A stretch of DNA of 64,000 nucleotides from positions 3,686,573-3,750,572 of the forward strand of contig JAJEKV010000083.1 of NCBI GenBank assembly GCA_021234155.1, in the 5' to 3' direction. The DNA is from Isoetes taiwanensis. Taxonomy: Eukaryota; Streptophyta; Lycopodiopsida; Isoetales; Isoetaceae. The number at the start of each line of letters is the position of its first letter. The stretch's first letter is position 1. The translations under genes were made by a program, and so were the position numbers. Below the pieces are notes generated by a model. It did no database searches. It was not told the origin of the DNA and saw only the letters and a list, made by a program, of their open reading frames with translations. Below are positions 10,237-38,905 of this stretch, in pieces.

Positions 10237-10690
10237 TGTCATGAACCTACGTGAAAACAAGGAAAATACGTGAAAAATACACAAGAAATATGGAAGAAAT
10301 ACGCCAAAATAGGCAAAGAATCTGATATACGAACAAAAATCAAGAGTACAATGACCCGAAGGCAAGCAAGAACATGAGACAGATGCCTAGAAGGTTCAAG
10401 ACTGGCGTTGAACCAGAATGGTTCGACAAGAAGGAGATGCCTCCTTATATATCCAGGCCAACGGTCAGGATCGCGCCACTTCAATAGATGAGATCATGCC
10501 AAGTGTTGTGCATGCATGTATGTTCTAGAAAATTCTAGAACCTCCTGGAAACAGCCTCGCATATGAGAAAGATATGAGGGAATGTCTTTAATAAATATTG
10601 GTAGCGCACTTTTTGCATTCGTGTGACGACTATCTTTTGTACATACGAGTATAATGTTCGTATGATACGAATATCTGTATGGTCGTCACA
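10237..10690 (-). repeat. Ty3/gypsy 3' LTR (454 bp)
   Basis: On the minus strand it starts TGTGACGACC and ends GGTTCATGACA, the usual TG...CA layout. A TATATAAGG promoter-like word lies inside near 10,450. It directly follows the chromodomain end of the gypsy pol frame. The last 50 or so bases recur at 38,853-38,905 on the plus strand, where they close another gypsy copy of the same family. Confidence 0.82.
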
Positions 10691-10992
10691 CCATCCCCCT
10701 CCTACGACGGTCCTCGGAGCTAGGGCCGGAGTACTCAAACGTGGCTTATCCGAGTAACGCCAATAAAACTCCGCAATTTTATCAGGAGCATTAGTCAGAT
10801 TCTCGGCAGGCTCCCAGGTTCTATCACTTGGCGAGTAATCTTCCCAATCGACAAAGTAATGCAATCGTCGACGAAGAAACTTGGAGTCCAGAATCTCTCG
10901 AACCTCGAACTCCCCATGATCATCAATTTCTACTGGTGGTGGCGGCGGAGGAACGCGCACCGAGAAAGTATTGACTGTGTAGGGCTCCAATA
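10691..10992 (-). mobile_element. Ty3/gypsy (chromovirus) pol 3' end with chromodomain
   Basis: The minus-strand frame shows a proline run followed by a chromodomain: EFEVREILDSKF, then YFVDWEDYSP and RTWEPAENL. It belongs to the chromovirus branch, whose integrases end in a chromodomain. This is the 3' part of the element whose 5' part lies at 23,614-25,834. The 12.6-kb DNA transposon sits between the two halves. It is a fossil, described as such. Confidence 0.85.
10989..10992. repeat. Target-site duplication, left copy (AATA)
   Basis: AATA precedes the left inverted repeat and recurs at 23610-23613 directly after the right one. The flanks outside the two copies are the two sides of one gypsy element, which supports a real 4-bp duplication. 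Confidence 0.85.
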
Positions 10993-11016
10993 AAGCATAA
11001 TTTCATTAATTGTGGA
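10993..11016 (+). repeat. Left terminal inverted repeat of the 12.6-kb transposon
   Basis: Begins AAGCATAATTTCATTAATTG. The right end, read inwards, begins AAGCACAATTTCATTAATTA. The two match at 22 of 24 positions (differences at 6 and 20), then diverge. Confidence 0.9.
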
Positions 11017-11985
11017 TTTTGGCCGAGTCCATATGACTCCCAAATGTACCCGATTTTTTAGAAAATAAGGGTTTTATTTAGTAGAATGATGCAAATTTTC
11101 GAAATGTGTGCAGGTAGGTGGGATGGCAGGCCTTGTATCTATAAAGCCCAAAAAGTGCCAACCGAGTTTGTGTCATGCCCAAGCGCCTTCCTCAGCGTGG
11201 TCTCGCCACGCTAGAAATGCATTCGCAAATCGCATAGTGTAGATTCATATTCGTGCCGGTCGAATGGTCCCAACCAGCGCAGCTATGGATTCACAATGAG
11301 CTAAATGTGCGGCCATATCGTAGAGCCAATATTAGCTCATGCGAATCAAACCAAAGTTGAGGTGCGAACGAGATAAACCAAAATGGCACGAGAAGAAATG
11401 AGAAGCCAACTCGGGAAGCTCATTCGTCGTGGAGAGTTGATGAAGGATGGCGATGAGCGGAGTCGATAACCTTAGCGGTGGTAGAGCTGGAAGGTCGCTT
11501 TGATTTCCTTTGAAACGCCATATTTACAGGCGTAAGCTCAAAGAGGTTGCTGAAAATGGAGGATGTTTGGCTGCACAACACTTTCCTATCCGTTGTTTAA
11601 GAAGCTTTACAAGAAGGAAAAGAGGCAAAAGTGTGGTTTTGGTAAGGAAACTCATCCTCGGACTCCTATCCGGATGATGGCGTAATTGGATGATCGGTTC
11701 GATCTGTCTTGCCGACAAGACATATCGAGTTCCAACTGGGGGATCTAATTATGGTGGAACCGGATATTGACCAAACGTCCATGTTTAATATTATCTATTA
11801 TTATCTATTGTCTTTCTCGCTCAACCTATGCTTTCGACGCGCATGTTGTTAAAGTTGATATTATTATCTACGTAATCCATCCATGTACTCCATTCCTATG
11901 TGAATAGAATGTTTTTGTCTACATTGAGAACATCCCAATGACGTGCAATTTCTCAATAGTAATATCTTATTTCATGGAGGCCTCC
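11017..11985. other. Left subterminal part of the transposon, no gene recognised
   Basis: Mixed sequence with CpG-rich parts and a possible TATA word (CTATAAAG near 11,140). No clear ORF or motif is seen, and palindrome copies start only after it. Confidence 0.35.
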
Positions 11986-12322
11986 CGAGGAAATTGGGCC
12001 AGCCACTTTCCTTCCAGGAGGAAATTGGTAGCCCCGCCCATTTTCTTTTCGGAATAGTCTCCTCCGAAACTGGGCGTCATGACTTTTGCCCTTCGCGGAT
12101 GGCACGAAGGTAGTTTCATGAAGGCTTCCACTTTCAGGAAAATTGGCGCCGCCCACTTTCCTTCTTGCGGGCAAAAGGAAAACGAAAAAAACGTAGATCG
12201 AACCGAAGATAACAACCGAAACATAACAACGTAATCATGCACAACACGGTTACATCATCATATCATATAAAGTTATGAAATACATGAGTCATAGATTGTA
12301 ATTATTGGTGATTCTATTAATC

Positions 12323-12657
12323 TCAAAAGCCTCGCTCCGGAACCCACACAATATGGATAGTAACATGATACTCGTAGGGAGTCTTTCTTTTCGACCAGTA
12401 GCTATACCATCTGACCCGGGATCGAGAGAGATCCCTTTCAACTTCGCTGTATAAAAGATCGTCATAGGTCATAAGGCAAGTAAGGGTGTCAACATGGGGC
12501 CCGTGAAGATGGCGAGACATGGCGGCGGAATGTCTTTAGTGGCGTCGAATGCAACTATATTTATAGCCAAGGAATTATTGATGACTACATCAGAAGCGGC
12601 ATTATTGGTTGTATATACGGTGTACATCCAATAATCTTTGGCGCATAATACCTTCAA
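12323..12657 (-). CDS. Cargo ORF block, unknown
   Basis: Two overlapping minus-strand frames, 12469-12657 (62 codons, with ASDVVINNSLAINIVAFDAT) and 12323-12520 (65 codons). They read like pieces of one gene broken by a frameshift or an intron. No family is recognised. The block lies between two palindrome clusters of the transposon cargo. Coding status is uncertain. Confidence 0.3.
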
Positions 12658-13235
12658 TAATGATTGTGGGTATAAATATATCTCAAACCAATTTTGACCA
12701 TCAAATTTGGCCTTCGCCTAGCCATGTGGTCTCGTCACGGTCTCCGAACGTGATTCCATCAACTGCAAGATGAATCACGAAAACTTCAAGCAAAGGCTTG
12801 AAATGAAAGAGATACCCATGGAAGATCGGATGACCACGATTCGCTCTAAATCCTCGTCATTATCCCGATCCCTTCGACGTTATCATCCATCGATATGGAA
12901 TAGAGAGCATCAAATGTACATGATAGAAGATCACCGGGTGCTCGGTGAAAATGACTCGAAAGAGTCCCCCTAAATGAACGCTTGTCATCTTGTTGTAATC
13001 GGACCGTAATCATCTATGAGATAAAGTATTAGTACAACTTGTCTTCTATATGTGCAACTTGTCCAACATGTCCCCGTGAAATTGGGCCCGCCCACTTTGC
13101 CCTTGAATGCTCATATCGAATGATGCGCTGTGAAATTGGTAGCCTAATTTCATTTGGTCGCATCTGGTGTACCTTATACACGTTACTTGTTAGCTTAGTA
13201 TGTACGCCAATAATTGACATCAATAATTTCTCACG

Positions 13236-13523
13236 CCTATAAAAGCAAGCGGCTCCACCGCATTCATCTCTCATGGCTTCCTTTTGCCGGATCGTCCGGG
13301 AGAACATCCATGATCCTTCAAGTGCTACTTGAGTTACAACGATATTTGCCCGGTGCTATATGATACGGTCTTAGTCTTGATCCATGGCTCCGGTCCAAAG
13401 CGGATGGACTGCGGTAATTGCGGGAAGCTCACTTTCGTGTTGTGGTCCACTTGTATTGGCTTCCCCGATCGCCAGATCTTTGAGCTGAATGGCATCGCCT
13501 TGGCAGGCGTTGACGACGAGTGA
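13236..13523 (+). CDS. Small cargo gene with TATA box, unknown
   Basis: CTATAAAAGC at about 13236 sits roughly 35 bp before an ATG at 13273 (MASFCRIVRENIHD...). That frame ends after about 19 codons. A second plus-strand frame at 13329-13523 continues with coding character: VLYDTVLVLIHGSG, a CGNCGK pair of cysteines that could bind metal, and FPDRQIFELNGIALAGVDDE at the end. An intron or frameshift must lie between if this is one gene. Palindrome copies sit on both sides. No family is recognised. Confidence 0.35.
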
Positions 13524-14308
13524 CTCTTTGTACACTCGGATATGTTAATGTACCTGACAAGGATATAATAATGTTGTAAGGATGTAATAAGCATAGTCAA
13601 TATTATATAATGTAACGTGCACTGAGTAATTCACGAGGGTCTCTTTTGATCTCCACTTGTTTTCGCAGCTCCACTTCACTTCATGTTTGATGGCGCTTAC
13701 TCGCGCGCGAGAATTGGGCGCCCGCCCAATTTCTATCTGGAGGATAGCGAAAGTCAAATAAATTTAATAAAAGGCTATAGTTTGTAGGGTTAACCAAATT
13801 CGGCCCCAATTTGGTTAGCAAAAAAAACTAGAGAAATTTAAGACAAGGAAATGAGTGCAACGTTATCATTTTACGAAAAAGAAGTATGAACAATTGTTAT
13901 TAACATATTTCACGTATTTTCAAATCATAAGTCGCTCATTAGATGCGAGGCACATCTTCCGAATGATCCCTTACCGGGTTCTCGTTCTTTGGCTGAGGTT
14001 GTTGTCTTTGCCTCTTTGATCAATTCCATTCTTTGCATAAAATCTTGGGCCCCAGTTCCTCTCATTCTCATCATGTGCACCTTGATTGTCTTACGTATTC
14101 GCCACCTCTTCCTCTACATCTTGATCGCTCATCGTGTTGGGGACCACATCCTCTCCATCCCGATTGTCCCCTTCACATGTTTCCATGACAACGACAGTCG
14201 GGCTCCCTAGCAACCTCTTCCCTCGAACTTTGAGGTCGCCTCAATCATGTCCCGAGTATTCACCCGGTCCCCTCCCTCGCCAAAGGCGTTGATGTTGTTT
14301 TTCTTCTC

Positions 14309-15025
14309 CTAAATAGTTCCAAATCCACGAGAGCCTAGGGCGGGCCCTTTTGAGTCAGACTTGAATCGCACTCTTGTCCCGTCTCCGAGGCCCGATTGCA
14401 CTTCGTTTATGGTTGTAGGCGAGAACGGACAAAGGTGTCTCGAGGCGGAAAGTCGAGGTGAGGAGCATTTTTTGGAAGTAGAGGCCTTCTTCTTTCCCTC
14501 TTTTATCTTACGTAGTGCCCGAGCTCTTGATTTTTTCTCGTCTAACATGACATCGAGTTGCTCGAATATCCGTACAAGCTTAATTTCCAGCTTCTCGTCG
14601 TCTCAAAGACAATGTTTTATAGCCCTCGCACACCGCCGCCGGGCTAAAAGCACCACCGAAGAAGTCGAGAACAAAGTGCAACCTTCCGGCATCAACTGCG
14701 ATACTAGATAGGTGCACGCCCTACTTTCCAAAACTGATTACGCACCAAGATTCCTCCCCACTGGCCGCACCCTTGTCGCACAAAGGTCGATACAGCCAAT
14801 AAGTCGCACGGAAAAACAAATGTTAGAAACATTGATAGTCAACAAGCAAATTGGTAGAGCCCAATTTAAAATGCATACCTGTTTGCACACCTCGTGTCGT
14901 GCAAATTCTTTTCGATGTCCCGTTTTTCGTGAATGCTTGGGAAACTTAGCATATTGCTTTGGATGGTCGGAATTGGCGAAGCAAATATTTATTTCCTCAG
15001 ACCGGGACGAGCGTCTCGGCAACAT
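14309..15025 (-). CDS. Cargo ORF block, minus strand, unknown
   Basis: Minus-strand frame 14738-15025 begins EEINICFANSDHPKQY and contains KHSRKTGHRKEFARHEVCKQ. Immediately after that, near 14,879, comes a GTATGC donor-like site and then an AAATTGGGC palindrome (14847-14869). Frame 14309-14548 is strongly basic, with EGKKKAST, and could be a nuclear or nucleic-acid-binding tail. Farther down, near 14,200-13,925, the same strand has an acidic stretch. I read this as exons of one unknown gene, but splice sites are only guesses. Confidence 0.35.
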
Positions 15026-15180
15026 ACATTAGCAGGACAAGACATTGCAACTCGAACTCTAGAGGTAGTCGCAGCTACGCCTGGGGTCCCGGTAGGAACC
15101 AACCCAAACACGGCCGCCACCGCCTATTGTCTTCATGGCGGATAGGCACTCATTGAGGCGATGCGGGGTAATAAATATAG

Positions 15181-15774
15181 CTACCCAAGAAAAGCTGGCT
15201 GGTCCGTCATCGTGCTTAGGCGGTCAAGGAATTTTTCATAATCTTCCTTTGGCCATTTCTTCGTATATCTGAAGTCGCATCCAATGAAGCGGGCCGAAGT
15301 GTTTACCACGTCCACGCACAAACCTCCCGGACTAACGTGGAAACACTTGAAAGGTTTGCCACCCTCCTCAACTGGCCCTAGAAGATATTCGTCTACTTTG
15401 CTGTAGAGGGACTCCGGAAAGCTTTCCTTCTCCATCTCTTTAAGCGTCTTTACATCCATCCAGATGCTACTTGCGAACATAAGCATCGATTCTCCGCGGA
15501 ATATGGGGTGAGCTTGCCTCAAGGCGCCCATGTCTTGAAAAGGAAGTTTCTTCACCTCCTTCATGTATCTGACAAGGGCCCGCTCCATTGTTCCAATCTT
15601 CTTCAGCTCACCGGCTCTGACTTTCATAGTGCGTCTCCCAGTATAATCCTTGCTTCCCTTCAGGAATGTGGTGCCATCCTTGATCTCCTTCAGCAGCCTT
15701 TGCAGATCTAGAGGATGCATGGACTTTAATGGGCGACAGGAATTATTGGTGAAAAGTCTAAGCCTATCCTTCAT
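15181..15774 (-). CDS. Cargo ORF, 197 codons, unknown protein
   Basis: This is the longest open frame of the cargo. It is a charged, soluble-looking protein with no signal peptide or membrane segment: RLLKEIKDGTTFLKGSKDYT, an MKVRAGELKKIGTMERALVR helix-like stretch, then PFKCFHVSPGGLCVDVVNTS and FDRYTKKWPKEDY-like text near the C terminus, ending DQPAFLG. It overlaps the end of the upstream frame 15771-16031 by four bases, so the two may form one gene. Codon use and composition look coding rather than random. I do not recognise the family. Possible roles are accessory transposition factor or captured gene; neither is shown. Confidence 0.5.
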   Translation of the reverse strand: MKDRLRLFTNNSCRPLKSMHPLDLQRLLKEIKDGTTFLKGSKDYTGRRTMKVRAGELKKIGTMERALVRYMKEVKKLPFQDMGALRQAHPIFRGESMLMFASSIWMDVKTLKEMEKESFPESLYSKVDEYLLGPVEEGGKPFKCFHVSPGGLCVDVVNTSARFIGCDFRYTKKWPKEDYEKFLDRLSTMTDQPAFLG

Positions 15775-16031
15775 CTCAATTTTTCTCCCTTCTCGCCCTT
15801 CAACCGGTCTTCATTAGAATAACCGGGCAACCGGTGCACATATTCCAATTTTTCGTCGTCAAGATATACAAAGTAGTCGTTTGTCAAAAACTCGATAGTT
15901 GACTTCTTAATCGCTTTTCGCGGCTTCTGACTTTCCAATCTCGCATGACAAAGAAGGCACCGGATAAAGGCGATACACATCATCTTAATTTGCTTGCAGA
16001 TGACGCAATTTGGCGCCCAATTTCGGATCAT
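15771..16031 (-). CDS. Cargo ORF, unknown
   Basis: Minus-strand frame with CVICKQIKMMCIAFIRCLLC (five cysteines in 20 residues) and then FLTNDYFVYLDDEKLEYVHR. The first part begins inside a run of five palindromes (15,995-16,180), so the true exon may start lower, after an intron. The last part continues into the next frame at 15774 and probably belongs to the same gene. Confidence 0.35.
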   Translation of the reverse strand: MIRNWAPNCVICKQIKMMCIAFIRCLLCHARLESQKPRKAIKKSTIEFLTNDYFVYLDDEKLEYVHRLPGYSNEDRLKGEKGEKLR

Positions 16032-16153
16032 CCGACACTCGTGAATTAGGGAGCTTCAATTTCCCCTTATGAACGTTTCCGAAATTGGGCGAAGCCCTAT
16101 TTGCGGCCGTTCTCCGGAAATTGGGCCTCAATTTGAAAAGAGTGCCATCAGGT

Positions 16154-16909
16154 TTAAATTGGGCTGGCCAATTTCAACTTGTGGATAGCGTGAACTAGTA
16201 ATGGTGGTAGTGCACTTACGTAATCACGCCTCCACCGACGGAGTGCCCGCGTTGCCCTTCTTAGGCTTCCCGTAGAATGCCCAATTGCGTCATTCTTTGA
16301 ATTTCTTCGAAAAATACTTCCCTCGTGTATAGTCTTCTTTGTTATGTCATTATTCTCCTGGCTTACACGAACGTACTCGATTGCTGTGAGATTTCCTGCC
16401 AGGACTCGGCATTTCCTTTTGGCATAGAAAAAGAATATCAGTTCTGCCAAGTGCTTCCTTTCAGAGGCCATGCCAAAGCTTGTGTGACAGCGGTTGAGCA
16501 ACCGCGGGTCGTATGGTTGCCATTAACAATCCAAAGATTCTCGCATTTTGCGCATCCTCCCGACTTCTTCCACTTGATTGCTCGCCCTCATGCGTGGATC
16601 GATCGACGCAAGACGACGATACGGGGAGGGTGCATCGATGGCTGATAAACGATTAAGTAGAGTGTCCAAGTGCTTCGGACTTATGACCCTACAAGTCATA
16701 TTTGCCGGGGCTTTATGCATCTTGAACACATCGACTTCAATCTCGAAGCCCACCCCCAGAGGGTAGATTCTCTCCCTGTGCTTGATGCTTGCTATGGCGC
16801 TTTGTGACAACTCATGTGCCGCTCTCCGAGTGGCGCCGCCACCCGATGGAGTGAACTTCACGATCTGCCAGGCTACTCTCCTCCGTTCTTCGGATGAAGA
16901 AGAAGACAA
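16154..16909 (-). CDS. Cargo ORF block, unknown
   Basis: Two consecutive minus-strand frames, 16523-16909 and 16154-16501, lie in the same reading phase and are separated by a stop codon near 16,523. They show a serine/glutamate start (SSSSSEERRR), a strand-like YPLGVGFEIEVDVFKMHKAP, and LLNRLSAIDAPSPYRRLASI, then AELIFFFYAKRKCRVLAGN and an Arg-rich ALRRWRRDY. Directly after RRWRRDY, at about 16,218, comes GTAAGT, a good donor, and 45 bp on a palindrome. So the exon probably ends there and the rest of the frame is intron. No family is recognised. Confidence 0.4.
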
Positions 16910-16954
16910 GGACTCCCTCTCCGATGTTTTTGGGCTCTGGATAACATCGCCCGC

Positions 16955-17155
16955 TTATGCCCTCTTCGACGGACCACCTAAATCTTTTCCCATGCGCTTA
17001 GGGGGTTCCTCTTCGGGCGGGCCGGTCCTCTTCACAGACTCGCATCGGGCGACCTTGATGTTCTCTTCATTCCACCGGAATATAAGTTTAGTGGCGCCTT
17101 TACGGTGAATAGCCTTAGCGGTGTCCTCGCCTTCTTGATCACAGACGGGCTCCAT
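16955..17155 (-). CDS. Cargo ORF, possible gene start, unknown
   Basis: Minus-strand frame starting MEPVCDQEGEDTAKAIHRKG and running through KLIFRWNEENIKVARCESVK to a Pro/Glu-rich segment. It precedes the block 16154-16909 and could be the first exon of the same gene. It is hydrophilic with no signal peptide. No family is recognised. Confidence 0.35.
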   Translation of the reverse strand: MEPVCDQEGEDTAKAIHRKGATKLIFRWNEENIKVARCESVKRTGPPEEEPPKRMGKDLGGPSKRA

Positions 17156-17930
17156 TTATTGCCCCCCCTCGCTTGTGCCTGTCTCACCTTTCTTGTATCT
17201 AGACTTAAGCCACTTAGTATCGCATTACTTTAGGGTTGGTTTTGCCCCGATACTCGCGGAACGCTTGCTTTTCGACACGCTTACGTTTGTGCTCTAATAT
17301 CCACCGCCCGACAAAAAGTAGTAGCCATCCAAAATATCAGTTCTTGATTTGATGCCCGAAAAGGCTAAACTTTCATATGAGTCCAGTATCCTTTCCTTTA
17401 CGAAAGCAAGAATGTGGGCTTTCCTTTATACTTTCATGCTCATCATACATGGCTCGTACCAGATAGTGGAACTTTATAACGGACAAAAGTCCGATCTACG
17501 GTTTGTCTTCAACGCCGATGAGGAAGTCATCATTGTTCTCAGCGAGACCTCCATGTCGATGACGATACCCGCCAATTCATTTTTCCCGCCCTATCTTGCC
17601 AAAGAAAAGCGAGAAGATCCTTGAGGTGGTTTGTCCGGGACCCAGGATGAATATTCCCTATCTCTATGCACCGGACCCATTCCTCAAAGAATCAAAAATT
17701 TCATGGGGCACAACACGGATGCCAGCAAACAGTTCTTTCTCTTCTTCCGTTCTTGCATTCTCTATTGCAATAGCCTCTGCAAATTTGGGTCCTGCATCGA
17801 ACCCGAAAGCAAACCGCTTTGTTCAAGGCCATATTAATTCCCGCAGAACGGAAAGTAGTGTTAGTACTTGGGAGACTTGGGGCTGAAGAGGTCATTGTTC
17901 GATGGAGGCAAATTGGGCTCACTAATTTGC

Positions 17931-18170
17931 CCTGATCCCCATCAAGACACCAAATTGGGCCCGCCAATTTGCTCCTACCAACTCATGGTGAGCCTTGAGT
18001 CCGAGGGGCGATTGTATCCCGGGAGGCCAAATTGGGCAAATACCAATTTGCCGTGATCCCCACGCGACACCAAATTGGGCGCCCCAATTTGCTCGGCCAA
18101 CTCATGGTGAGCCTTGAGTCCGAGGAGACGATTGTATGTCATTGGTGGGCCAAATTGGGCCTTTTCAATT
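17931..18170. repeat. Tandem repeat, two units of about 120 bp
   Basis: The string TGATCCCC, then ACACCAAATTGGGC, then CAACTCATGGTGAGCCTTGA occurs at 17933 and again about 120 bp later. Each unit holds two of the palindromes, and a partial third unit follows. Local duplication has helped multiply the palindromes. Confidence 0.85.
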
Positions 18171-18237
18171 TGCCGCATCCCCACGATATAATTGATGGGC
18201 CCGCCCATTATTTTGATCAAAGTGGGCTGACGCCAAA

Positions 18238-18354
18238 TTGCCTATTCGGAGAGCACGACTTTTGGATGGTAGACTTGGGTAGAGTAAATTGGCCGCCCAA
18301 TTTGAACTCGCCCAAGTCTACCATCCAAGGTAGTCGTGTTCTCCGATAGGCAAC
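18238..18354. repeat. Long inverted repeat, stem of about 55 bp
   Basis: The left arm from TTGCCTATTCGGAGAGCACG and the right arm ending at CGATAGGCAA are reverse complements with a few mismatches and small indels. Both carry TTGGATGGTAGACTTGGG. The centre (18286-18303) is a copy of the palindrome, AAATTGGCCGCCCAATTT, so the long hairpin looks like an extended member of the family. Confidence 0.88.
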
Positions 18355-19788
18355 CGGGCGCCCGCCACTTTGGTGCTCCGGGATAGGCAAACCGGGCGGC
18401 CCATACATTGGTGTGAGGGATAAGTAAAATGGGCGCCCGCCCACGCTGGTGTTAGGGAAAAGTTTAATGTTTTGCAAAATGAAACACTCTAAGGGAAGCA
18501 ATTGGGTGCCCTATTCAGCCTGCATACGTATGCATCCGTGGGGACCAAAGAGGCATCTAGAAGATGTTCATATGTCCGAGATGTTATAGCGGATACTTAA
18601 TCGCAAGCGCCAAGTTTATATTTAGAAAGTAGTCCACCTTACCTTTGCCACCGGTGGTGGGGCGAGATGCCATCAATCGCTAGGAATTCCTTGGTGTATG
18701 CAGGTACCCAGCGATAGGTCAATGCAGAGGAAGGCGCCAAATGGGATGGCGACAAGCCGAGAGACACAAGGCGCCAAAGACCTCGATCCGCCGGCCGGCT
18801 GGTTCGAGTATAGTCTTGGAGAACGACTTTCGTGGCTAAGAAATATGAAGGCGACAAGTTTTAGCGAACAAAGCAGCCAAAGAAGCCGTAATTTTCTAAA
18901 TCTGCGGTCGAGGAGAATGAGGGGCTTTTAAAGGGTTATGGACCTCTTGGGGGCTAAGACAAGTGTCGTGCATGTAAGCGCTTGACCCTTTGAAATAAAA
19001 TGGACCGTTGATGGCTTCGAGCGCGAGGAATTAATTGTGGACCTTAATAATGAGTCTTGGCGGATTTTTTGAATTTCAAATCATCATTTAAAGCCCGCCC
19101 AAAATTAATTCGAGTCATGCACGTGTCGCGACGTGCTTTAGGCGGAACTTCGTGTTTCAAAGTTCGGAGACGGACACATTATTTCAAATTAGGTGGGACA
19201 TTTAACTTTAAAAATTGGGGAAATTACATTCAAATTTTGGGGGAATTCATGTTTAAATGTAAATGCGCTTCAAACCTCATTGTTTTTCCCGGGCAAAGGC
19301 CTTGTTTGGCTACTATCTTTTCTACAAGACGCAAAACATCTTCAAATTCATATTCATGGCCACGAGATCTCCAAAGGTTTGTCTTTGCTCCACAGCTTAA
19401 ATTAAGCCATACCTCGATGTGTAATTGCCGCGAAATGTGATGTGACCCGATTTTATCAATCACGCCTTTCCATTCACGGGCTGTTCATTCGCACCTCTTC
19501 AAGCACGCCTGTTCATTCACACCTTTCCATTCACGCCTTTTCATGGCTTGACCCTTGATTTACTCCTCCTCATTCACCTCGTTCTTGTCACATTTACATA
19601 AACTCTAAATTTCGATGCGGTCGCCCTTTTTTCCTAAAATTGTCATGCGATTTTGTGTGCCTCGCTATTTTCTCCATTAACCCTTGTTTGTAGTCGCCCT
19701 TCCAATGCTCGATTGTATTTGTTTTGGGAGCTCAATGATAAATTCCGCTTAGTGTCCGCCTCCTTAGTTCTCTTAGTGTGTATGTGTA

Positions 19789-20334
19789 GGTGACCGGTGT
19801 AGGTGAAACCGCCTTGGATGGGCAAAACCAGATCTCGAAGGTGTTTTATCTTGGTGACAACTAAATTGGCGCGCCGAGTCTCTGCCTACTTCACGGGTCT
19901 TTAACCACCACGAACAAATTGGGGGCCTAATTTGTGTCGCTGGATATGTCCCGCTTCGATCGACAACCTTCTTTTTGTACCCATTGTGAGACCGATTTGC
20001 ATCAATAATACCCTTATATAAGCTACGATTCGGTTCAAATTGGGCGGCCTATTTACAACAATGGGACAAATTGGGCGGTTAGCCCATATTGTCCCTTTTC
20101 TCAGATGACCGGATAGGTGAAATGTCCGTTGGGCCAGGTATCTCGAATGTGTTTTCTCTTGGTGATGTAAATAAATTGGGCGGACGCCGAAAGTGTGTGC
20201 CTACTTTACAGCTCCTCTACCACCACGAACAAATTGGGCGCCAATTTGTGTCTTGGATATGGCCTCTTCAGAGTGAGAACCTTCTTTTCTACCCATTGTG
20301 AGACTCATCGATCCAATACTAACCTTATACAAGG
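19789..20334. repeat. Direct duplication of about 235 bp
   Basis: The segment 19789-20024 is repeated at 20104-20334 with perhaps 20-25 percent divergence. Shared words include GACCGG, GTGTTTT-TCTTGGTGA, ACCACCACGAACAAATTGGG, ACCTTCTTTT and TACCCATTGTGAGAC. Both copies carry palindromes. It is in the transposon, between cargo and transposase. Confidence 0.85.
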
Positions 20335-20517
20335 GGAATCTAAACATCTCATACGTAAAAAGGGCACCCGCCTTTTATTGTCCTTGTAACCATTGAATGG
20401 GAGTCCCCTGTGTCATTTGCATTGCTTTCGCCTTCCTTACTCGATTTTAACACTACTGAAATCCTTTGTGCGGGTTGTGTATCTCTTCCTTAATGAACAT
20501 CTAGTAGCAAAGGAGTT

Positions 20518-20928
20518 GTGGGGCAAATGACACAATGCCACTTCAAGGAGATATCGAAAGGACTACTTGGCGTAGGTGTGGAGGAAGTGTTCAAGGCCAC
20601 CATACCCTTCCCCGCCAACTCGGATGCAACCACAATAGCGAAGCCGAGGGGGCTCATTCGCTCTGTGGAGAAGCATGAAGATGCTCGTGAGTCGCCTAAT
20701 GACGCCCCCAAAAAAGATGGACAGCGGTGGGGAAGGAGACACAACCGCGTGATAAGATATACCCTTCTTGAAAAGGATTGTGAGATATGGCACTCATGCG
20801 ACTCCATTATTGCCTTAAAGGGATTCATATCTTTCACCGCCCCCATGATGCAGGTTTGTGACCAGTTTCCGGGTTTCAAGTTTGTGGGAGTATCTCAGAA
20901 TCGAAGGTTTCCTCCCCTTCTCAAGTGA
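20518..20928 (+). CDS. ORF before the transposase, unknown
   Basis: A 136-codon plus-strand frame with IKHE-like charged text, KKDGQRWGRRHNRVIRYTLL and EIWHSCDSIIALKGFISF, ending shortly after a possible GTTTGT donor at PMMQ. It lies 100-300 bp before the first recognisable transposase text. It may be the 5' exon of that gene or a separate accessory gene. A similarly long frame on the other strand (20490-20879) makes the call uncertain. Confidence 0.3.
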   Translation: MGQMTQCHFKEISKGLLGVGVEEVFKATIPFPANSDATTIAKPRGLIRSVEKHEDARESPNDAPKKDGQRWGRRHNRVIRYTLLEKDCEIWHSCDSIIALKGFISFTAPMMQVCDQFPGFKFVGVSQNRRFPPLLK

Positions 20929-21054
20929 ACATCCGTTGCCGTGGTTGCTTGCAGTGCCGGGGATGCTCGTGAGATGGAGCAATGACCTCGCCCTCGTGTT
21001 GACGAGTAAAGGTCTCGAGATATTGACCGCAGACCGCAACAGAAGCGTGATATT

Positions 21055-23524
21055 GTGTCCAGCCGGGGGAGCCCGAGCATCGAAAGCACCCAAATTATGA
21101 GAAACGACATTACACTTTTCATTCCCGACAACCCGGGGAAGGTTGTTAGGCCACCAAAGCTTGCTCGTATCACCACTGTAATGCTATCCTCACTTACGGG
21201 GAGGACCTTGTGTTGCAAGAATAGGTGTTGTGTCGAGGTTCTCTAGGAATCAAGTTGTTAACATGCGAAAGGAATTCCTTGCCATGAAATCAAGTGATAG
21301 GGTTACTTTTGTTTATGACATGTTAAGCCAACAACATGAAAGGTCGAGAGTGGGACGGCCGGTGCCGCAGGGGAATCTCGTTTTAAAAAAGGGCGTGGTA
21401 CCTTGGTCTCGGATCTCAAAGTCGGTGATCACGAAATGGAAGGCCCAATTTCTTGAGGGTGCACGCAAGGCCGAACATGGTAACCGTGGCACCTTGAAGC
21501 CTCGCCCTCGACGTTGGCATGTGAGGCCGTGTTTTCCATGTTCGTGAGGGAGAAACGGTGAATCCTTGCCCCACCGTGAAAGGTGGAGAAAACGAGGAGG
21601 GATAAGAGAGAATGTCGAAGTTGCCTCGCAATGTTTACTGAAGTCCAAATTCTAGAAGAGGTTAATGCAGAGGTTGTGGCATTGACTGGCAAGAAGGTAT
21701 CACCGACAGGTTTTCATAGAACGTGGAGGCGGAGTTTCCGGGACGTCAGTATCGCAAAGAAAATTGCATTCTCCAAATGCGATACATGTGAGGTGATCCG
21801 TACGAAGTTACTGAAGACCAAAGATGAAGGAGAGAGGAGGATGTTGCATGATGAAAGAAGAGCGATAGATCGAGCAGGGCCTGGGTCGCATTACACACAA
21901 TCTTGGGTCGTGGAGATTATACTCCCACGGTATCCCTACCAATATCTTTGTATTATTCACGACAAAATGGATCAAGCCAAAACAATGATTCCAAAATTGC
22001 AACAATCTGTAAAGTCTCTCTGGAGACTTGACAAGCTGAAAACGACATTGACTGGTGCATTGACTCATGGTCATGGGAATGGATCTTATGGAAACTTTGC
22101 CCTGGACTTATGGCCAGATGACTCTAACTTCCATGTAGGTTCTTTGAATAGCATCTTGAAGAGATTAGAGATGGGGCACTTAGTATGCAGAGGCCACCGC
22201 CGGTGCCCTGAATCATCTGCTCCAAAATGGGTCTCCTCATTGCGAGACACAACGGCCTTGGAGTCAAAGTTGTCACTATCCAATACCAGCATACCTGCTA
22301 ATTTGCCACAGGCACAGGGACCATCATTGAAGCCTCTGCCCAAGATACTTTATTTGCAGCTGGACAACGCATCTGGACAGAACAAGAATAGGTATGTCTT
22401 CTCCTATCTTTCTTACCTAGTATATCTTGGTGTGTTTGAAGAGATTGAGCTAGGGTTCATGATGCCCGGTCACACACATGATGATATCGATGCCTTGTTT
22501 GGTAACTTCTCTACATCTTTAAAGAAGGCAGAGGTGCTCACAATGCCAGAACTACTGTATGAATTCCACAAATGCAACTTGAATACACCCGTCCCCTATG
22601 TTGTTGACAAAGTTCCGGATTGGAAGGGTTTTATAGAAGGCTACATACCGGATGGGGATGATAGATTGACAGTCATACCACCCCTCTAACTTTCAGATTC
22701 GCTATGAATGGTGATTGGCCACCATGTATTACAAAAACTAGACCCACTTACCCGGATTGGTTGCCCACAGTGGAATAAAATGTGGAAAGAAAAAAGAGGA
22801 CGGGAAGCCCATGATGCCGTTGGATATCCTAAGCCGCTTCCTCCCAAGAAATCGGTGAAGGACCTTGGCACAACTGCGAAAGCAAGATCCACAAGCATAT
22901 ATTGCATTGGGTTGCTTGTTCAACGCCTAACAAAGGTGCTCGAAGCGCCAACTACTCGCACGCTCACGCCCAATGATTGAATATTGGATGAAACTCTTGC
23001 AAGAACTCGGGAACATCAGCAGTGACGAAGGCACTTATAATGACTTCTGGCCATGTACTAGGCAAGCACAAGCTCCACCTCATGTAGCTGTAGTGGTAGA
23101 GCCAATTGCTACTATCACTCCTCCTTATGTCGGCCCCTGGAAGGACAAACCTGTGCCGGAATTCAACCCATACAAAGATTTGAAGAAAGGTATGTTTATT
23201 ATGGCACGCCCTGATGATGTGTTGTGCCCAACTTGGGTGGGCCTAGCTACTGAGGACCCACAAATGGATGATAAGAAGGAGAACTTTGAGACTATTCTGG
23301 TGACTTGGTGGGAGCCAATCCCAGTGAGGAACCAAGTCTACCCAGCTAATTATGCCAATTGTTGGAAGAAGAGATGGAGGCCAACGACTGCAAGTGACCG
23401 CATAGAAGTGGAGACTATCGACTACGCTTGGGAGCCATCAAACAAGAAGAAGATACCTAATACTATTAAGATACCCGTGCATGCTGCTGAGGCATATGCA
23501 GCACTCGCAGGGGATGTCAACTAG
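21055..23524 (+). pseudogene. DUF7869-like transposase of the 12.6-kb element, interrupted
   Basis: Order seen: a cysteine cluster GRTLCCKNRCC (about 21,205), MRKEFLAMKSSDRVTFVYDM (21,262), a basic linker with EHGNRG (21,470), the 368-codon frame 21583-22689, and a C-terminal frame 22973-23524 with NCWKKRW and AWEPSNKK. The main frame has KCDTCEVI (a CxxC pair), IIHDKMDQAKTMIP, the strand LYLQLDNASGQNKNRYVFSY and MMPGHTHDDIDALFGNFS. The Asp of HDKMD, the Asp of LDN and the acidic DDID cluster are candidate DDE-type residues, by analogy. At least three frame changes or stops (near 21,240, 21,550, 22,687 and 22,975) break it unless introns explain some of them; CTTTCAG at 22,692 could be an acceptor. 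The stop at 23522 is 85 bp from the right end of the element. Family assignment is from memory of the motif. Confidence 0.75.
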
Positions 23525-23585
23525 TGTATGAAAATGAGTCATTCATCCAAGTCTACTAAAAAATGGTCCATAAATTCAGGTATTG

Positions 23586-23609
23586 TCCATAATTAATGAA
23601 ATTGTGCTT
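23586..23609 (-). repeat. Right terminal inverted repeat of the 12.6-kb transposon
   Basis: Inverted partner of 10993-11016 (22 of 24 positions match). Just inside it, GTCCATAA occurs twice (about 23563 and 23586), which could be a subterminal binding repeat. Confidence 0.9.
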
Positions 23610-23613
23610 AATA
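23610..23613. repeat. Target-site duplication, right copy (AATA)
   Basis: Matches 10989-10992. The gypsy reading frame resumes immediately outside it on the minus strand. Confidence 0.85.
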
Positions 23614-25834
23614 GAGAAACGTGAAATACTGGATGGAGCCGAACAGCTGGAGGGAGCTCGGGCCGGAATGTCACATTGTTGATCCGAGCCGTGATCCGGT
23701 AAGGACCAAGGCGACGATAGTCAAGCTTGTTGCATGATCGTGAGGTAGGGAGATCCCTATGAAGAAGCAAGACAAGGTCACCAACATGAAATTTAGGAGC
23801 TTCCTGCCGATGCAAATCAGCATAATGCTGATAGCGTTCCTGTGCTCGGTGAAGATGATGCTGAAGATTCGATTGAAGAGCCTGGAGTTTCTCAAGTCGA
23901 GATTCGGCACTAGGATTGACCGAGTCACCGCCAGCGACGCTAAGGGACCAACGAGGATGCTGACCAGAGTTCAGAAAGAACAAAGTCTGGCCAGTGGAAG
24001 CATGTATTGAGTTATTATAGGCAAACTTAGCTAGTGGAAGATAATCGACCCGATCACCCTGCTGATAACTGATAAAGCACCTTAAATATTGCTCCAGAGT
24101 CTGATTAGTGCGCTCTGCCTGCCCATTACTTTCTGGATGATGACCAGATGTCAGTGAGCGGTCGATATGCAATAACTCCAAAAGCCGCTTCCAAAAACCT
24201 GCGACAAACTGCGGTCCACGATCGCCGACGATAGTATCGGGCAAGCCGTGAAGTCTGAATACTTCACGAAGCAGAAGATCCGTTATTCCCTCACTGGTAA
24301 TGGTGATGTTGCAGAGAATAAAATGAGCCATCTTAGAGAAACGATCAACAACCACCATGATGGTATCATAACCCCGAGAGACTGGCAGCTCCAGAATAAA
24401 GTCTATAGAAATACTCTTCCAAGGTCCATCTGGTACCGGCAGTGGTTGAAGAAGGCCATAAGGAAGATGTCTTGGAACCTTCGCTCGACAGCAGACATTA
24501 CATGATCGAATAAAAGCTTCGACAGAGCAACGAAGCCCAGGCTATCAATACTCTCGACTAATAAGTTCAAGAGCCTTGGCTACTACAAAGTGTCCGACCA
24601 TAGATGAATCATGGCAAGCCTGGAGAACCCGAAGCCTAGAGGCACCATCTGGCACATACAGAAGCCCATCACGGAACAGGAGTCCATCTCAAACCTCAAA
24701 ACGATCATAGTCTGATCGATTTGCTGAGAAGATGATGCAGAGCCAAGGTGTGAGAATACATCTTGAGCCAATGGATTAGAGGGTAGAGATGCTCGAACAG
24801 ACTCCAACAAGGCCGTATCATGAGGCCTCTCGAATAAAGTGAGGGCCATAAGCTGGAACCGACCAGACCCTATAATAACCTGTGATTGTTGATCAAATGC
24901 AGGATCACCTAGCTTGGGCTCAAGGTAGGAGCGTCAAGACAAGGCATCAGGCTTCCATTGGAGGGATCCAGGATGGTACTTGATCACAAAATTAATATGG
25001 GATAATACTTGAGTATGCCACTGGGCCTGGCGACGGTTGAGCACTCGAGCAGACTGACAATATTTTAGATTTCGATGATCTGTGTAGACTGTGACCTTAT
25101 AAGGAGATCTCTCCGGGAAACGTCTCCACTCCTCCAAAGAATCCACTATCGCCAACAACTCCTTGTCATAAATGGGATAGTTGATTTCAGCAGCCTGAAT
25201 CCGTGAATGATAGGCGATTGGATGCAATTCATGGTCATCCCCCTCCTGTGACAGAATCCCTCTAAGAGCAAAATCAGAAGCATCTATTTCGACAACATAT
25301 GGACACAAAGAATCTGCATGAGCAAGAACTGGTGTCGTGGTGAAAGCATGCTTCAAAGTAACGAAAGCAGATTCCGCTTCTACATTCCATTCAAATGGCA
25401 TGTCTTTAACCGTGAGGCGTGTCAAGGAAGGGCAATCTCCAAATAATCCCAAATGAAACGCCGATAGAAATTGTCAAACCCAAGAAAACACTGAACATTT
25501 CGAATGGATGAAGGTGTTTGCCACTCCAGAACAGTGTTACCTGTTTGGGATCCATAGAGACTCCATGTGGAGTGATATGAAAGCCAAGAAACTCCACATT
25601 ACCCTGCTCGAACTGACACTTCTCAAGTTTGGCATATAACCCATGCTCACGAAGCTTCTGAAGGACATGTCGAACATGCCTCTCATGTTCTTCGAGAGTC
25701 TTAAAATAAATAAGAATATAATCCAAATAGACGATAACAAAAGTGTCTAAGAACTCTCGAAAGACATCATTGGCTATATGCTGAAATACTGCTGGAGCAT
25801 TGTTAAGTCGTGAGGCATATGAGAGGGACTCCAA
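23614..25834 (-). mobile_element. Ty3/gypsy pol (RT, RNase H, integrase), 5' half of the split element
   Basis: Fossil chromovirus pol on the minus strand. From high to low coordinates: the second half of the reverse transcriptase (DVFREFLDTFVIVYLDYIL, about 25,760), RNase H (VEIDASDFALRGILSQ, about 25,290; TDHRNLKY, about 25,080), the integrase core (VVVDRFSKMAHF, about 24,350; GDRGPQFVAGFW, about 24,240; SNGQAERTNQ, about 24,125), and the integrase C-terminal LHPVFHVSLL at the transposon border. It is broken by a handful of lesions. Its 3' part and LTR are at 10,237-10,992. At 25,835 it abuts a LINE piece, so its own 5' end, gag and 5' LTR are lost. The same family recurs at 37,510-38,905. 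Confidence 0.9.
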
Positions 25835-25837
25835 AAC

Positions 25838-27170
25838 CTATGGAAAATGGTCAGAAATGGAGTTGCTACAGTCTGACGTAATGAGAACTTGATCCCAAAT
25901 ATCCAGATCAGTTGATGAGGTATAGAATCTGTCTAACAAACAAAAGGTTCTCTCAGGTCCTTTTCTTTTATTGCTCCAGGAATAAGTGGCTGAGGAGGAA
26001 GGGGGATGATAAACAAAAGTTCCAATAATCTTGTCCCATTTCACTCCTTTCATTTTTAATCATATTTAATTTCTTTCCCAGTTTCTCATAGCATAGGGGA
26101 GTGTTATTAAAATCCCTTGCTAAGAGCCAATTATGAACCTGTTTTTGTCCTTCAATCCAAATCCTCATTTCACTCCACTGCATTTCTTTCATGAGGCTCT
26201 GTTGAAGCATAGACATTAATGATGCCCAAAAGATGACCTTTAATGTCCAAAAAACTGACATACCATCGACCCGAAGGAGCTGCATAAGAGCCAGAGGATG
26301 AAAATCCTTTCCAGATCGTGAAAATATCTCCTTCTGTACCATTAGCAGCAGCCCAGGTGAAGCCACTCCCTGGAAAAATCCAATCCCCTAACTTAGAAGA
26401 TTCAAAAGAAGGAAGCCTATGCTCCTGCAATAGAATGATGTCTGCTTTCATTTTTTGAATGGCTATCAGAGCCCTTTTTCTTTTTAAAGGACCCTTTATG
26501 TCTCTAAGATTCCAACAAACAATCTTCATGAAGATTTATTTCCAGTGTTGGAAGCAGGCCCATCCAAATTGAAGAGGACCATTTTCTTGTGCTTTTTCTT
26601 AGATGTCTGTGGGGTATAAAATTCATCAAATCTAGATTGTGCAGGGGATGACATGACTAAGTCATTGGTTGGGTACACCTCTTCCAAACTGTCATCCACA
26701 GTAGCCCCTATATTTTGATCACCATGAATAGCTTGAACAGACTGAAGATCTGCAGATTGGATTTTTGAGCTCTCTCTAATGGCAGAAGGCTCAGCACAAT
26801 TTGGAAATTTTGGCTGTTGCTTTAAAAGCTCACCAATATCTCCTTGATTTCCAACCTCAGAGTTATGGATAAAAGGCACTGGTTGTTGCTTGTGAAGCTC
26901 ACCAATGCCTTCCAGATATGGTTTATCAGGACCAAGAAAAAGGTTCTGAACAGGAAAATTAGTGACCATTATTTTAGATGCATGAGAGCATTCACCTTTC
27001 TCCAGAACAGGAGAGGAGGAAGCAGACAAAGCTCCATTTTCCAGTGTTGGCTCCTTAATTGTAATTCCACGATTTAAGACCTTTACACTCCCGGGAGCTG
27101 TGGTTAAGACTTCCTTAAGCTTGTCAAAGAAAGCTTGAACATTCTGAATCTAATGTTCGACCCATAATCG
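25838..27170 (-). mobile_element. LINE 5' part: ORF1-like region and endonuclease
   Basis: On the minus strand, 27029-26526 encodes a Ser/Gln-rich ORF1-like or ORF2 leader segment. Then 26529-26170 starts with MKIVCWNLRDIKGPLKRKRA and has IILLQEHRLPS and YASTEPHERN, the N-terminal motifs of the AP-type endonuclease of L1-like LINEs. 26053-25838 continues to SISDHFP, the SDH box near the end of that domain. There is a frame change near 26,170. The element stops right after SDHFP at 25,838, so RT and 3' tail are missing. That is the reverse of normal 5' truncation and points to later deletion or recombination. Confidence 0.87.
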
Positions 27171-37509: not shown

Positions 37510-38905
37510 GATTGGTTCTCTTCTCATAGGGCCAACTTTAAGTTAGTTGACTCCTTTGCTAGGGAGAGGAACTTCATAGTTGCAGGATTTTACTGCTTTC
37601 ACTGTTGAGCTTGAGATGTATTTTAGGGATACAGATCGTCAGCGCACATCAGTTACAAAACTCAACAATCTCAGGCAAGGCTCTCGTCCAGCATCAGTTT
37701 ATGAATTTAAATTTTGTAAAATTTCAATGGATACTATCTGGGATGATGCTGCTCTCTGTGATTAGTTTCAAAGAGGACGAGGCTATAAAATCTGTGGTTC
37801 GTTGTGATAACCTTCTTTGAGCATGAAGGATATGCTGTTGACCATGGAGGATTCCAAAACCTTGGACGAGGCTATAAAATCTATGGTTCATTGTGATAAC
37901 CTTCTTTGAGCATAGGCAAGAAAGATAGAATCAAATTAGTTCTTCAATCCCGCAAAAACCAGTAATTACAGCAGCTTCTGCGCCGTCCATGCCCTCTAGA
38001 TTAGATGGTCATGTACCTATGCAGATTGATCGTGTGATTCAGGGGCTCTTGTCTACAGCTTGAAAGCAATGCCGAAGAGAAACCAATTTACACCTTTATT
38101 GTCTCGACGCTCCTATCTGATGCCTAATGCCTTGGCTTGATGCTCTTACCTTGAGCCTAAGCTGGGTGATCCCACATTTGATCAGCAATCACAGGTTATT
38201 CTAGAGTTTGATAGGTTCCAATTATGGACATCACTTTGTCCGAGAGGCCTCATGATTCAGCCTTGCTGGAATCTATTGGGGCATCTTGCCCTCCGATCCA
38301 TTGGTTCAAGATGTATTTTCACATCTTGGTTCAACATCATCTTCTCGGCAAATGCGCTCGGATTATGATCGTTTTGAGATTTGAGATGGACTTCTGTATG
38401 CTCTAGATGTTGCTTTTAGGCTTCCGGTTCTCCAGGATTGCCACGACTCACCTATGCTACTTAGTAGTCGAGAGTATTGATTGTCTGGACTGTGCTGCTC
38501 CTTCGAAGTTTTCATTCGGTCCTGTGATACCTGCTACCGAGTGAAGGTTCTGAGACATCTTCTTCATGATCTTCTTCAGCCATTGCCTGTTCCAGATGGG
38601 CCTTGGAAGAGTATTTATGCGAACTTTATCTAAGAGTTGCCCCTCTCTCGAGGTCATGATGCCATCATGGTCATTGTGGATCGCTTCTCTAAGATGGCCC
38701 ATTTTACTCCTTGCAACGCCACTATTACCAGTGAGAGAACATCTGATCTTCTTCTTCGTGAAGTAGTCGGACTTCATGGATTGCCGGATACTATTATTAC
38801 TGATTGTGGACATCAGTTCGTCACAAGTTTTTGGAAGCGGCTTTTGAAGCATATTTCTTGCATATTCCTTACGTATTTTCCTTGTTTTCGAGTAGGTTCA
38901 TGACA
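37510..38905 (+). mobile_element. Internally deleted Ty3/gypsy copy, ending in LTR remnant
   Basis: Fossil on the plus strand, same family as the element at 10.2/23.6 kb. Parts: gag (about 37,510-37,920, with LEMYFRDTDRQR and LRQGSRPASVYEFKF), then RNase H/integrase-side sequence from about 38,070, the integrase core (VIVDRFSKMAHF, about 38,670; TSFWKRLLK, about 38,845), then directly the last 50 or so bases of the LTR (38,853-38,905, ending GGTTCATGACA). Most of pol between gag and RNase H, and everything between the integrase core and the LTR end, is gone. It has many breaks. Confidence 0.82.

Follow-up and report, generated by a model that had tools for sequence, protein, structure and literature searches.

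The question raised by this locus is what a 12.6-kb insertion in the genome of the lycophyte Isoetes taiwanensis consists of, and what role can be assigned to the large part of it that lies outside the transposase gene. Within the window (the whole stretch of 64,000 nucleotides that was analysed), the element spans 10993-23609 exactly, and both ends are fixed to the base. It is bounded by terminal inverted repeats (TIRs) of 24 bp. The left repeat (10993..11016, plus strand) is identical in all ten further copies fetched from the genome, and the right one (23586..23609, minus strand), which agrees with the left at 22 of 24 positions, is identical in the eight fetched copies with both ends. When the two differing positions were opened, the TIR pattern matched the window only twice at up to three mismatches, both times at the element ends, with an expectation of 0. 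The target-site duplication AATA is present on both sides (10989..10992 and 23610..23613, no strand assigned), and the insertion separates the integrase/reverse transcriptase side (23614..26000, minus strand) of a gypsy pol gene from its chromodomain side (10535..10988, minus strand). Joining the flanks with a single AATA restores an uninterrupted gypsy reading frame from integrase to chromodomain, in which HPVFHVSLL runs directly into EPYTVNTF; its Pfam domains are rve, SH3_Tf2-1, and Chromo. The ends, the duplication, and the split gypsy element given by the original prediction were all reproduced.

The element belongs to a young, many-copy family of approximately 12.5-kb DNA transposons whose inverted ends measure 24 bp and whose target duplications measure 4 bp. 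All 40 places scored for the left end (own copy counted; 328 first-look candidates) had a match, 89-94% identical in the others, and at all 40 places scored for the right end (own copy counted; 874 candidates) identity was 98-100%. The ten fetched copies, whose left ends ranked best after that of the window copy itself, include nine that align over nearly the whole element, cargo included, and eight that retain both ends. Exact 4-bp duplications flank seven of these eight (ACCA, TTTT, TACA, TTTT, TTAT, AATA, and AATC), and the eighth has AGATAG on both sides; with the window copy counted, the figure is eight of nine. Inverted ends combined with a target duplication of fixed length in several copies are what defines DDE/D cut-and-paste transposons with TIRs, and the 4-bp duplication, AATA in the window and as listed for the fetched copies, is a trait of the Sola superfamily, to which the element may belong. 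It does not fit the Mutator-like type: Mutator-like elements produce duplications of 8-11 bp, those found here are 4 bp long, and DUF7869 is the sole Pfam domain found in the transposase. A repeat scan of the interior revealed no nested element having its own ends. The proposal of a 12.6-kb transposon with integral cargo was thus borne out by copies that share both the ends and the cargo.

The predicted transposase gene occupies 21248..23524 on the plus strand, of which 21248-22668 is covered by tblastn of related proteins (P0001-P0007) and the rest was assigned by frame path. In the window copy, its frame changes between 21574 and 21613, near 22680, and near 22775, with stops further on. A 369-aa open stretch (21580..22689, plus strand) contains the DUF7869 domain (PF25273) at E = 9.6e-40 and 136.7 bits, the curated cut-off being 26 bits, which agrees with the transposase type originally named; the same domain scores 127.4 bits in another copy (C935) and occurs in proteins such as R1sor_005091 of Riccia sorocarpa. 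Seven DUF7869 relatives are 26-36% identical to this stretch, and a further open stretch (22931..23524, plus strand) is probably the C-terminal end of the transposase. The earlier division into 2.5 kb of transposase and 9.5 kb of cargo was roughly right, with the homology of relatives lying at 21248-22668. D128, D262, and D301 of the 369-aa stretch form a candidate D-D-D/E triad, and the predicted strand/helix order fits an RNase H-like fold in a model whose confidence (mean pLDDT 46) is too low to build on and whose best PDB fold match, Mos1 transposase, was not significant (E 0.39). The element is predicted to move by cut-and-paste via this transposase.

In amoebozoa (Dictyostelium and Polysphondylium), Sola2 elements of large size are described that carry passenger genes (Fanzor1) which can be exchanged (PMC3627910). 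They resemble the present element in size, in having AT-rich duplications of 4 bp and inverted ends that are short and imperfect (12-13 or 21 bp in Sola2), and in carrying a second gene beside the transposase. They differ in that the present host is a plant and a Fanzor cargo, which was considered, had no Pfam match; the likeness lies in these element features. A pairing of transposase and cargo alone is therefore not unprecedented. No description of a transposon/palindrome system of the present kind was found in the literature searched, a collection with few subscription journals.

The cargo had also been reported to differ in base composition. Such a difference is present in the sequence, but its border lies at approximately 21999, inside the transposase ORF, and the difference is probably an assembly artefact rather than a sign of foreign cargo. 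In 10993-21999, CAG/CTG trinucleotides number 133 against 294 expected (z -12), the flanks also being low (z -2 to -4), and the CpG observed/expected ratio is 0.95 compared with 0.36-0.60 in the flanks. These figures could reflect real change, either CNG-directed hypermutation or old decay of the family, and it fits such a reading that the gypsy and copia elements of the window are unaffected and that the right 301 bases retain 7-8 CWG in seven of ten rows. The comparison of copies makes this reading improbable: departures from the commonest base amount to 1.3% well away from CNG and 11.9% in CNG-prone columns, the same site appears in several scrambled forms in different copies (14 columns shown), and patches of approximately 0.5-1 kb with normal CWG, in which the frames are open, vary from copy to copy. 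Because copy differences concentrate at CNG and the clean patches vary between copies, the unusual composition and the disrupted frames most likely arise from nanopore errors at CHG-methylated sites, not from decay; the assembly agrees in size with a published R9.4.1/Guppy 3.1 nanopore assembly. A foreign origin of the cargo, as a block captured together with its own repeats and composition from another genome, would likewise make it look unlike the host. It was rejected as the main explanation, and is considered very improbable, because the border lies inside the transposase and the differences cluster at CNG, for which sequencing errors account; moreover, a diverged relative within the same genome carries both the cargo gene and the palindrome, and no outside homologue was found among 5.8 billion proteins (E<=1). 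CWG loss by plain deamination was not favoured, TAG not being raised, and an alternative genetic code suggested by in-frame TAA/TAG was dropped, as TGA stops and frameshifts occur in the transposase as well.

Within the cargo, an accessory gene could be delineated on the minus strand. It comprises a first exon block (16218..17221), a predicted intron (15976..16217; donor GTAAGT at 16217, acceptor uncertain), and a second exon block (15184..15975) made up of a 209-aa ORF (15184-15810) and an upstream part. A probable further coding exon (13939..14617, minus strand) is open in two other copies (225 aa in C1027 and 229 aa in C1065) and broken in the window copy. Both exon blocks have matches (65% and 69%) in a diverged relative, C73 (family L040), with pN of 0.287 and pS of 0.823 over 287 codons. 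Judged by this comparison, the accessory gene is real, because the diverged relative keeps its protein. The original "cargo gene cluster" was too strong a term: there is good support for a single gene in two or more exon blocks, and a large share of the remainder is noncoding and contains a palindrome array.

The accessory protein gave no match at E<=1 among the 5.8 billion proteins with two queries (the second a joined reading containing errors), nothing above cut-off in Pfam (weak matches included MEIOC, E 0.02) or NCBIfam, and none in PHROGs or among PDB sequences. Since these searches were empty, it has no DNA-binding domain that could be recognised and nothing that points to a relation to VANC. 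The structure model of the accessory ORF was too poor for use (pLDDT 37). A ParB-like domain was suggested by eye from IVNGNHT in one copy (C1042), which resembles the ParB motif, and was dropped in the absence of any Pfam match at E<=5 or any match in PHROGs or PDB. No relatives were confirmed in viral or prokaryote contigs.

The palindrome array, which had been missed by the earlier reader, consists of approximately 22 sites of a 22-bp palindrome, AAATTGGGCGNNCGCCCAATTT, located in introns and intergenic DNA and almost absent from exons. In the window copy, 22 paired AAATTGG/CCAATTT sites (11991..20251, no strand assigned) are located at 11991, 12022, 12140, 13079, 13133, 13711, 13796, 14848, 16007, 16082, 16118, 16156, 17910, 17952, 18029, 18072, 18152, 18286, 19916, 20037, 20068, and 20231, four of them in the accessory intron, and the full form is seen in other copies. 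A variable spacer of 3-8 bases, suggested by the window copy, was withdrawn when other copies revealed a fixed 22-bp core. Exact 22-bp sites number 2720 genome-wide, compared with 0 for the control. The nine-mer AAATTGGGC, counted on either strand, occurs 19 times in the element and 0 times in the other 51 kb of the window (mean 0.22, maximum 2 in 500 shuffles), and 19-35 times in each of ten rows, the window included. Only one of the 19 lies in coding sequence, where 7.8 (broad coding set) or 5.9 (strict) would be expected, and 20 of 22 left half-sites are paired with a right half-site, compared with 22% at random positions. Several sites are embedded in larger repeats, namely a tandem repeat of approximately 118-bp units with two sites each (17904..18185, plus strand) and two copies of an approximately 190-bp unit with palindrome sites, 308 bp from start to start (19832..20333, plus strand).

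The association between gene and motif extends to a diverged relative. The intron between the exon blocks of C73 does not align to the window intron (E 1e-5, 50 bases or more), yet the same palindrome lies in this same accessory intron: it holds 10 of the 11 nine-mers in a 4-kb stretch and five exact palindromes, the cores being spaced at 66-73 bp. The palindrome is also present in a second diverged family (L042; right end 78%), and its 20 fixed bases are the same in L040 and L042. A further locus, L041, has four palindrome cores and no similarity to the window element, which would count against a pairing of gene and palindrome.

A possible model for such a pairing is offered by the VANC proteins of Arabidopsis VANDAL transposons, which bind short repeated noncoding motifs and lift silencing (PMC5735166, PMC10398659); the nine-base motif bound by VANC21 lies in the introns of VANDAL21, between its genes, and in its terminal noncoding DNA, frequently as part of tandem repeats (PMC5735166). 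The present element shares with VANDALs a transposase accompanied by further gene(s) (PMC5735166, PMC10398659), a short motif enriched in noncoding DNA, and, in the L040 intron, the turnover of motif tandem repeats between related families. By this analogy, the accessory gene and palindrome sites likely constitute an anti-silencing or accessory binding system, in which the accessory protein would bind the 22-bp array in noncoding DNA and binding would lift or prevent silencing of the element. Some observations speak against this reading: the accessory protein resembles no known family in database searches, and related VANDAL families have different motifs (PMC5735166), whereas a single core is common to the diverged families here. 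In addition, the CHG-error reading, if right, implies heavy methylation of the family in the tissue that was sequenced, contrary to working anti-silencing there. The whole reading, i.e., a young DUF7869 family whose accessory protein likely binds the palindromes and keeps the element unsilenced, with frames broken by nanopore errors, is given slightly less than an even chance. VANDALs are Mutator-like, and the proposal that a lycophyte DUF7869 superfamily evolved self-coded, sequence-specific anti-silencing independently of them, with the palindrome and a new DNA-binding protein family that would be inherited together across diverged elements, is put forward tentatively, as something that may well prove wrong.

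TnpA of En/Spm binds repeated sites near the element ends, and the accessory protein might similarly bind the palindromes to assist transposition, by gathering or condensing the element. The second gene and the site array, both conserved, fit this role equally. In the window copy, however, the sites are distributed through the interior (11991 to 20251), unlike subterminal helper sites; the left 990 bp contain none and the right 3.3 kb a single weak one (21433), so that a helper role appears rather unlikely. Alternatively, the palindromes may be RNA or cruciform hairpins (small-RNA sources or transcript structure) or by-products of hairpin-templated replication, with the accessory gene unrelated. 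A plain dimer site needs no outer-flank pairing, and such pairing would fit an RNA or cruciform role: outer arms scored 45 against 24.2 at 23 sites (0 of 20000 permutations) and 35.5 against 21.7 at 20 sites, the two longest and 21433 excluded (P 0.0036), and covariation was 0.196 against 0.118 (0 of 500 shuffles, which is not a probability). The site at 18286 forms the apex of a near-perfect hairpin with arms of approximately 50 bp (18241..18349, plus strand; RNA MFE -76.9, z -13.9), on which three miRNA-type matches fell among the five weak matches of an RNA family search, all below the gathering score. Hairpins as the sole explanation are nonetheless regarded as distinctly doubtful, given that the palindrome core is without covariation yet sequence-identical across diverged families, and that a second scoring with the two longest sites excluded left an arm signal of just P 0.014.

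Sequence-specific anti-silencing by transposons is documented, in the literature consulted, for Arabidopsis VANDAL elements. If anti-silencing by the accessory protein is true, another, unrelated instance, in plants separated from Arabidopsis by some 400 million years, would make it a general strategy, could explain the large noncoding interiors kept by huge transposons, and would supply a new protein with its specific DNA site as a tool for targeted demethylation. The locus also carries a warning that young repeats in nanopore-era plant assemblies can seem decayed and foreign through errors at CHG sites. As a minor observation, the palindrome half-site pattern matched three viral contigs, once each.

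By searching the whole genome assembly (1,658,258,908 bases in 1110 contigs), matches to the left 301 bases of the transposon (10993-23609) were found at 40 of 40 scored places (the best 40 of 328 first-look candidates), comprising the window's own end and 39 others at 89-94%, and the right 307 bases showed 98-100% identity at 40 of 40 scored places, own included (the best 40 of 874 candidates). The ten copies whose left ends scored highest, leaving aside the window copy itself, were fetched; nine aligned over nearly their full length, cargo included, and the exception (on contig C1054) consisted of ~550 bases of the left end and an inverted right end. Both ends were present in eight copies (11,955-14,614 bases), seven of which are bounded by exact 4-bp duplications and the eighth (C1078) by AGATAG at either side; in C1072 the right end was not found. 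Thus, the genome search proposed with the original prediction yielded further copies with their own duplications and the same cargo, and the cargo is therefore an integral part of the transposon. The inverted ends, AATA duplication and split gypsy element claimed there also proved exact to the base: the end pattern matches only the two element ends in the window, and the flanks joined with a single AATA give a gypsy reading that continues uninterrupted across the joint. No exact match to the end pattern was found in viral and prokaryote collections. Among the copies, C1065 (L012-L013) contains two adjacent elements, the second left end lying ~145 bases past the first element's right end, and C1042 (L030-L031) carries an extra ~1.9 kb near window 13758, a strand-biased simple sequence that produces long spurious open frames.

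The transposase had been described as DUF7869-like, and the profile comparison agreed (Pfam DUF7869, E = 9.6e-40). A protein search returned seven relatives, one of them named, from the liverwort Riccia sorocarpa; their homology spans 21248-22668, split over two frames, and DUF7869 is among the precomputed domains of six (P0005 scores 17.8 bits, under the cut-off). D128 is unchanged in all eight aligned sequences; a candidate triad adds D262 and D301, the last of which is E in P0006. Strands and helices are predicted in an order that agrees with an RNase H fold, in a poor model (pLDDT 46), whose best fold match, Mos1 transposase, is non-significant (E 0.39). No mention of DUF7869 by name was found in the literature searched. 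Sola elements appear in a list for Physcomitrella and in counts for two ferns, Ceratopteris and Azolla (PMC9033089, PMC6890710 and PMC6786969), and the main text of the Isoetes genome paper (PMC8566536) mentions neither Sola nor DNA transposons.

A codon-based path assigns minus-strand coding sequence to the accessory gene from ~17221 to 15196, interrupted by a predicted intron (donor GTAAGT) near 15976-16217, and continues through additional coding segments to ~14004; this path is not independent, because it was trained on open frames of the same element. Independent evidence comes from a diverged relative on C73 (L040), in which alignments of 1425 bases (65% identity) and 644 bases (69%) cover the two exon blocks, and no match was found in the intron separating them. 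The comparison gave pN 0.287 and pS 0.823 over 287 aligned codons, with dS saturated, ~13 overlapping residues shared between the aligned pieces and the C73 frame itself broken, and the accessory protein is therefore under selection to be kept. Searches with the protein found no known family.

The motif AAATTGGGC, part of a 22-bp palindrome, occurs 19 times in the element, both strands counted together, and not in the remaining 51 kb of the window (500 shuffles: mean 0.22, maximum 2). A CCAATTT-like half-site follows 20 of 22 AAATTGG half-sites, compared with 22% at random positions. Within a broad coding set, one of 19 nine-mers (7.8 expected) and two of 35 seven-mers (14.3 expected) were located; 13 seven-mers fall outside the element. 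The exact full core, AAATTGGGCGNNCGCCCAATTT, is absent from the window copy and visible in the nine other long copies (for example, in 5/10 aligned rows at site 20231 and 4/10 at 13711), each of which holds 22-35 nine-mers; 57,580 bases of right flank, drawn from eight copies, contain five nine-mers and no full core. Genome-wide, 2720 exact cores were counted versus 0 for a backward control, and several of those listed sit in short tandem runs. The C73 intron has ten nine-mers (four in the corresponding place of the window element) and five exact cores within a 66-73-bp tandem repeat. Another locus, L042 (G000:C63:25000-28500), has four cores and a right end 78% identical to that of the element, and represents a second diverged family related to it. 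At L041 (G000:C130:83500-87000), a tandem run of four cores lies in DNA that shows no resemblance to the element; some of the arrays may therefore stem from other elements, L041 possibly being another transposon family with a common site. The outer bases of palindrome sites tend to pair, more weakly in one of the analyses, and RNAalifold found no covarying core among the sites. One site forms the apex of a near-perfect hairpin with ~50-bp arms (18241-18349), which could be a small-RNA source.

It has been reported that Arabidopsis VANC21 binds a nine-base motif concentrated in VANDAL21 introns, intergenic and terminal noncoding DNA (PMC5735166), and that related VANDAL families have different motifs, likewise in tandem repeats (PMC5735166; PMC10398659). 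The present element similarly combines an extra gene with a noncoding, partly tandem motif array, and the favoured reading is that the two constitute a likely sequence-specific anti-silencing system, put at slightly under even chances. However, its transposase is unrelated, its accessory protein is of no known family, and one core is common to diverged families, whereas related VANDAL families differ in motif. The main alternative is that gene and array help transposition.

The distinct base composition described in the original prediction stood as a deviation, since 10993-21999 has a CpG o/e of 0.95 (flanks 0.36-0.60) and 133 CAG/CTG versus 294 expected (z -12; flanks only mildly low, z -2 to -4), and was qualified by inferred CWG misreads. 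Rows depart from the commonest base at 11.9% in CNG-prone columns versus 1.3% well away, an excess partly built in because the hot columns came from the same alignment. The same limitation applies to a separate comparison, in which control trinucleotides without CG or CNG gave 0.08-0.14 and CWG 0.20. The scrambled forms at CNG sites vary among copies. With intact flanks, the middle base of CTG is replaced in 22% of comparisons and that of CAG is missing in 8.7% (median trinucleotide 1.2%); homopolymers and CGG score high too. Roughly half of the comparisons overall, and two thirds of those at CAG and CTG, are unclassifiable. Patches of normal CAG/CTG content change position by copy, and open frames appear in them (e.g., 13939-14617 in C1027 and C1065). 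The published assembly was made from R9.4.1 nanopore reads with Guppy 3.1, miniasm, racon and pilon (PMC8566536), and Arabidopsis CWG sites carry more CHG methylation than CCG sites do (PMC7617993). The inferred cause is misreading of methylated CWG that stayed uncorrected in this repeated family, and the differences among 10993-21999 and the copies L012-L031, which fall mainly at CNG, are likely nanopore errors at CHG-methylated cytosines; no statement of such misreading was found in the literature searched. Against this reading, the gypsy and copia elements of the window lack the CAG/CTG effect, and 7-8 CWG are retained in the right 301 bases of 7/10 rows. If such errors are real, young repeats in the Isoetes taiwanensis assembly would appear decayed.

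Elsewhere in the window, an inverted second gypsy copy (38119-38865) shares 76% identity with the right flank, and the similarity stops short of the insertion site. A copia element at 47775-52941, with 99% identical terminal direct repeats (47775-48022 and 52694-52941), encodes a 968-aa open frame, and part of a related copy lies at 62283-64000.
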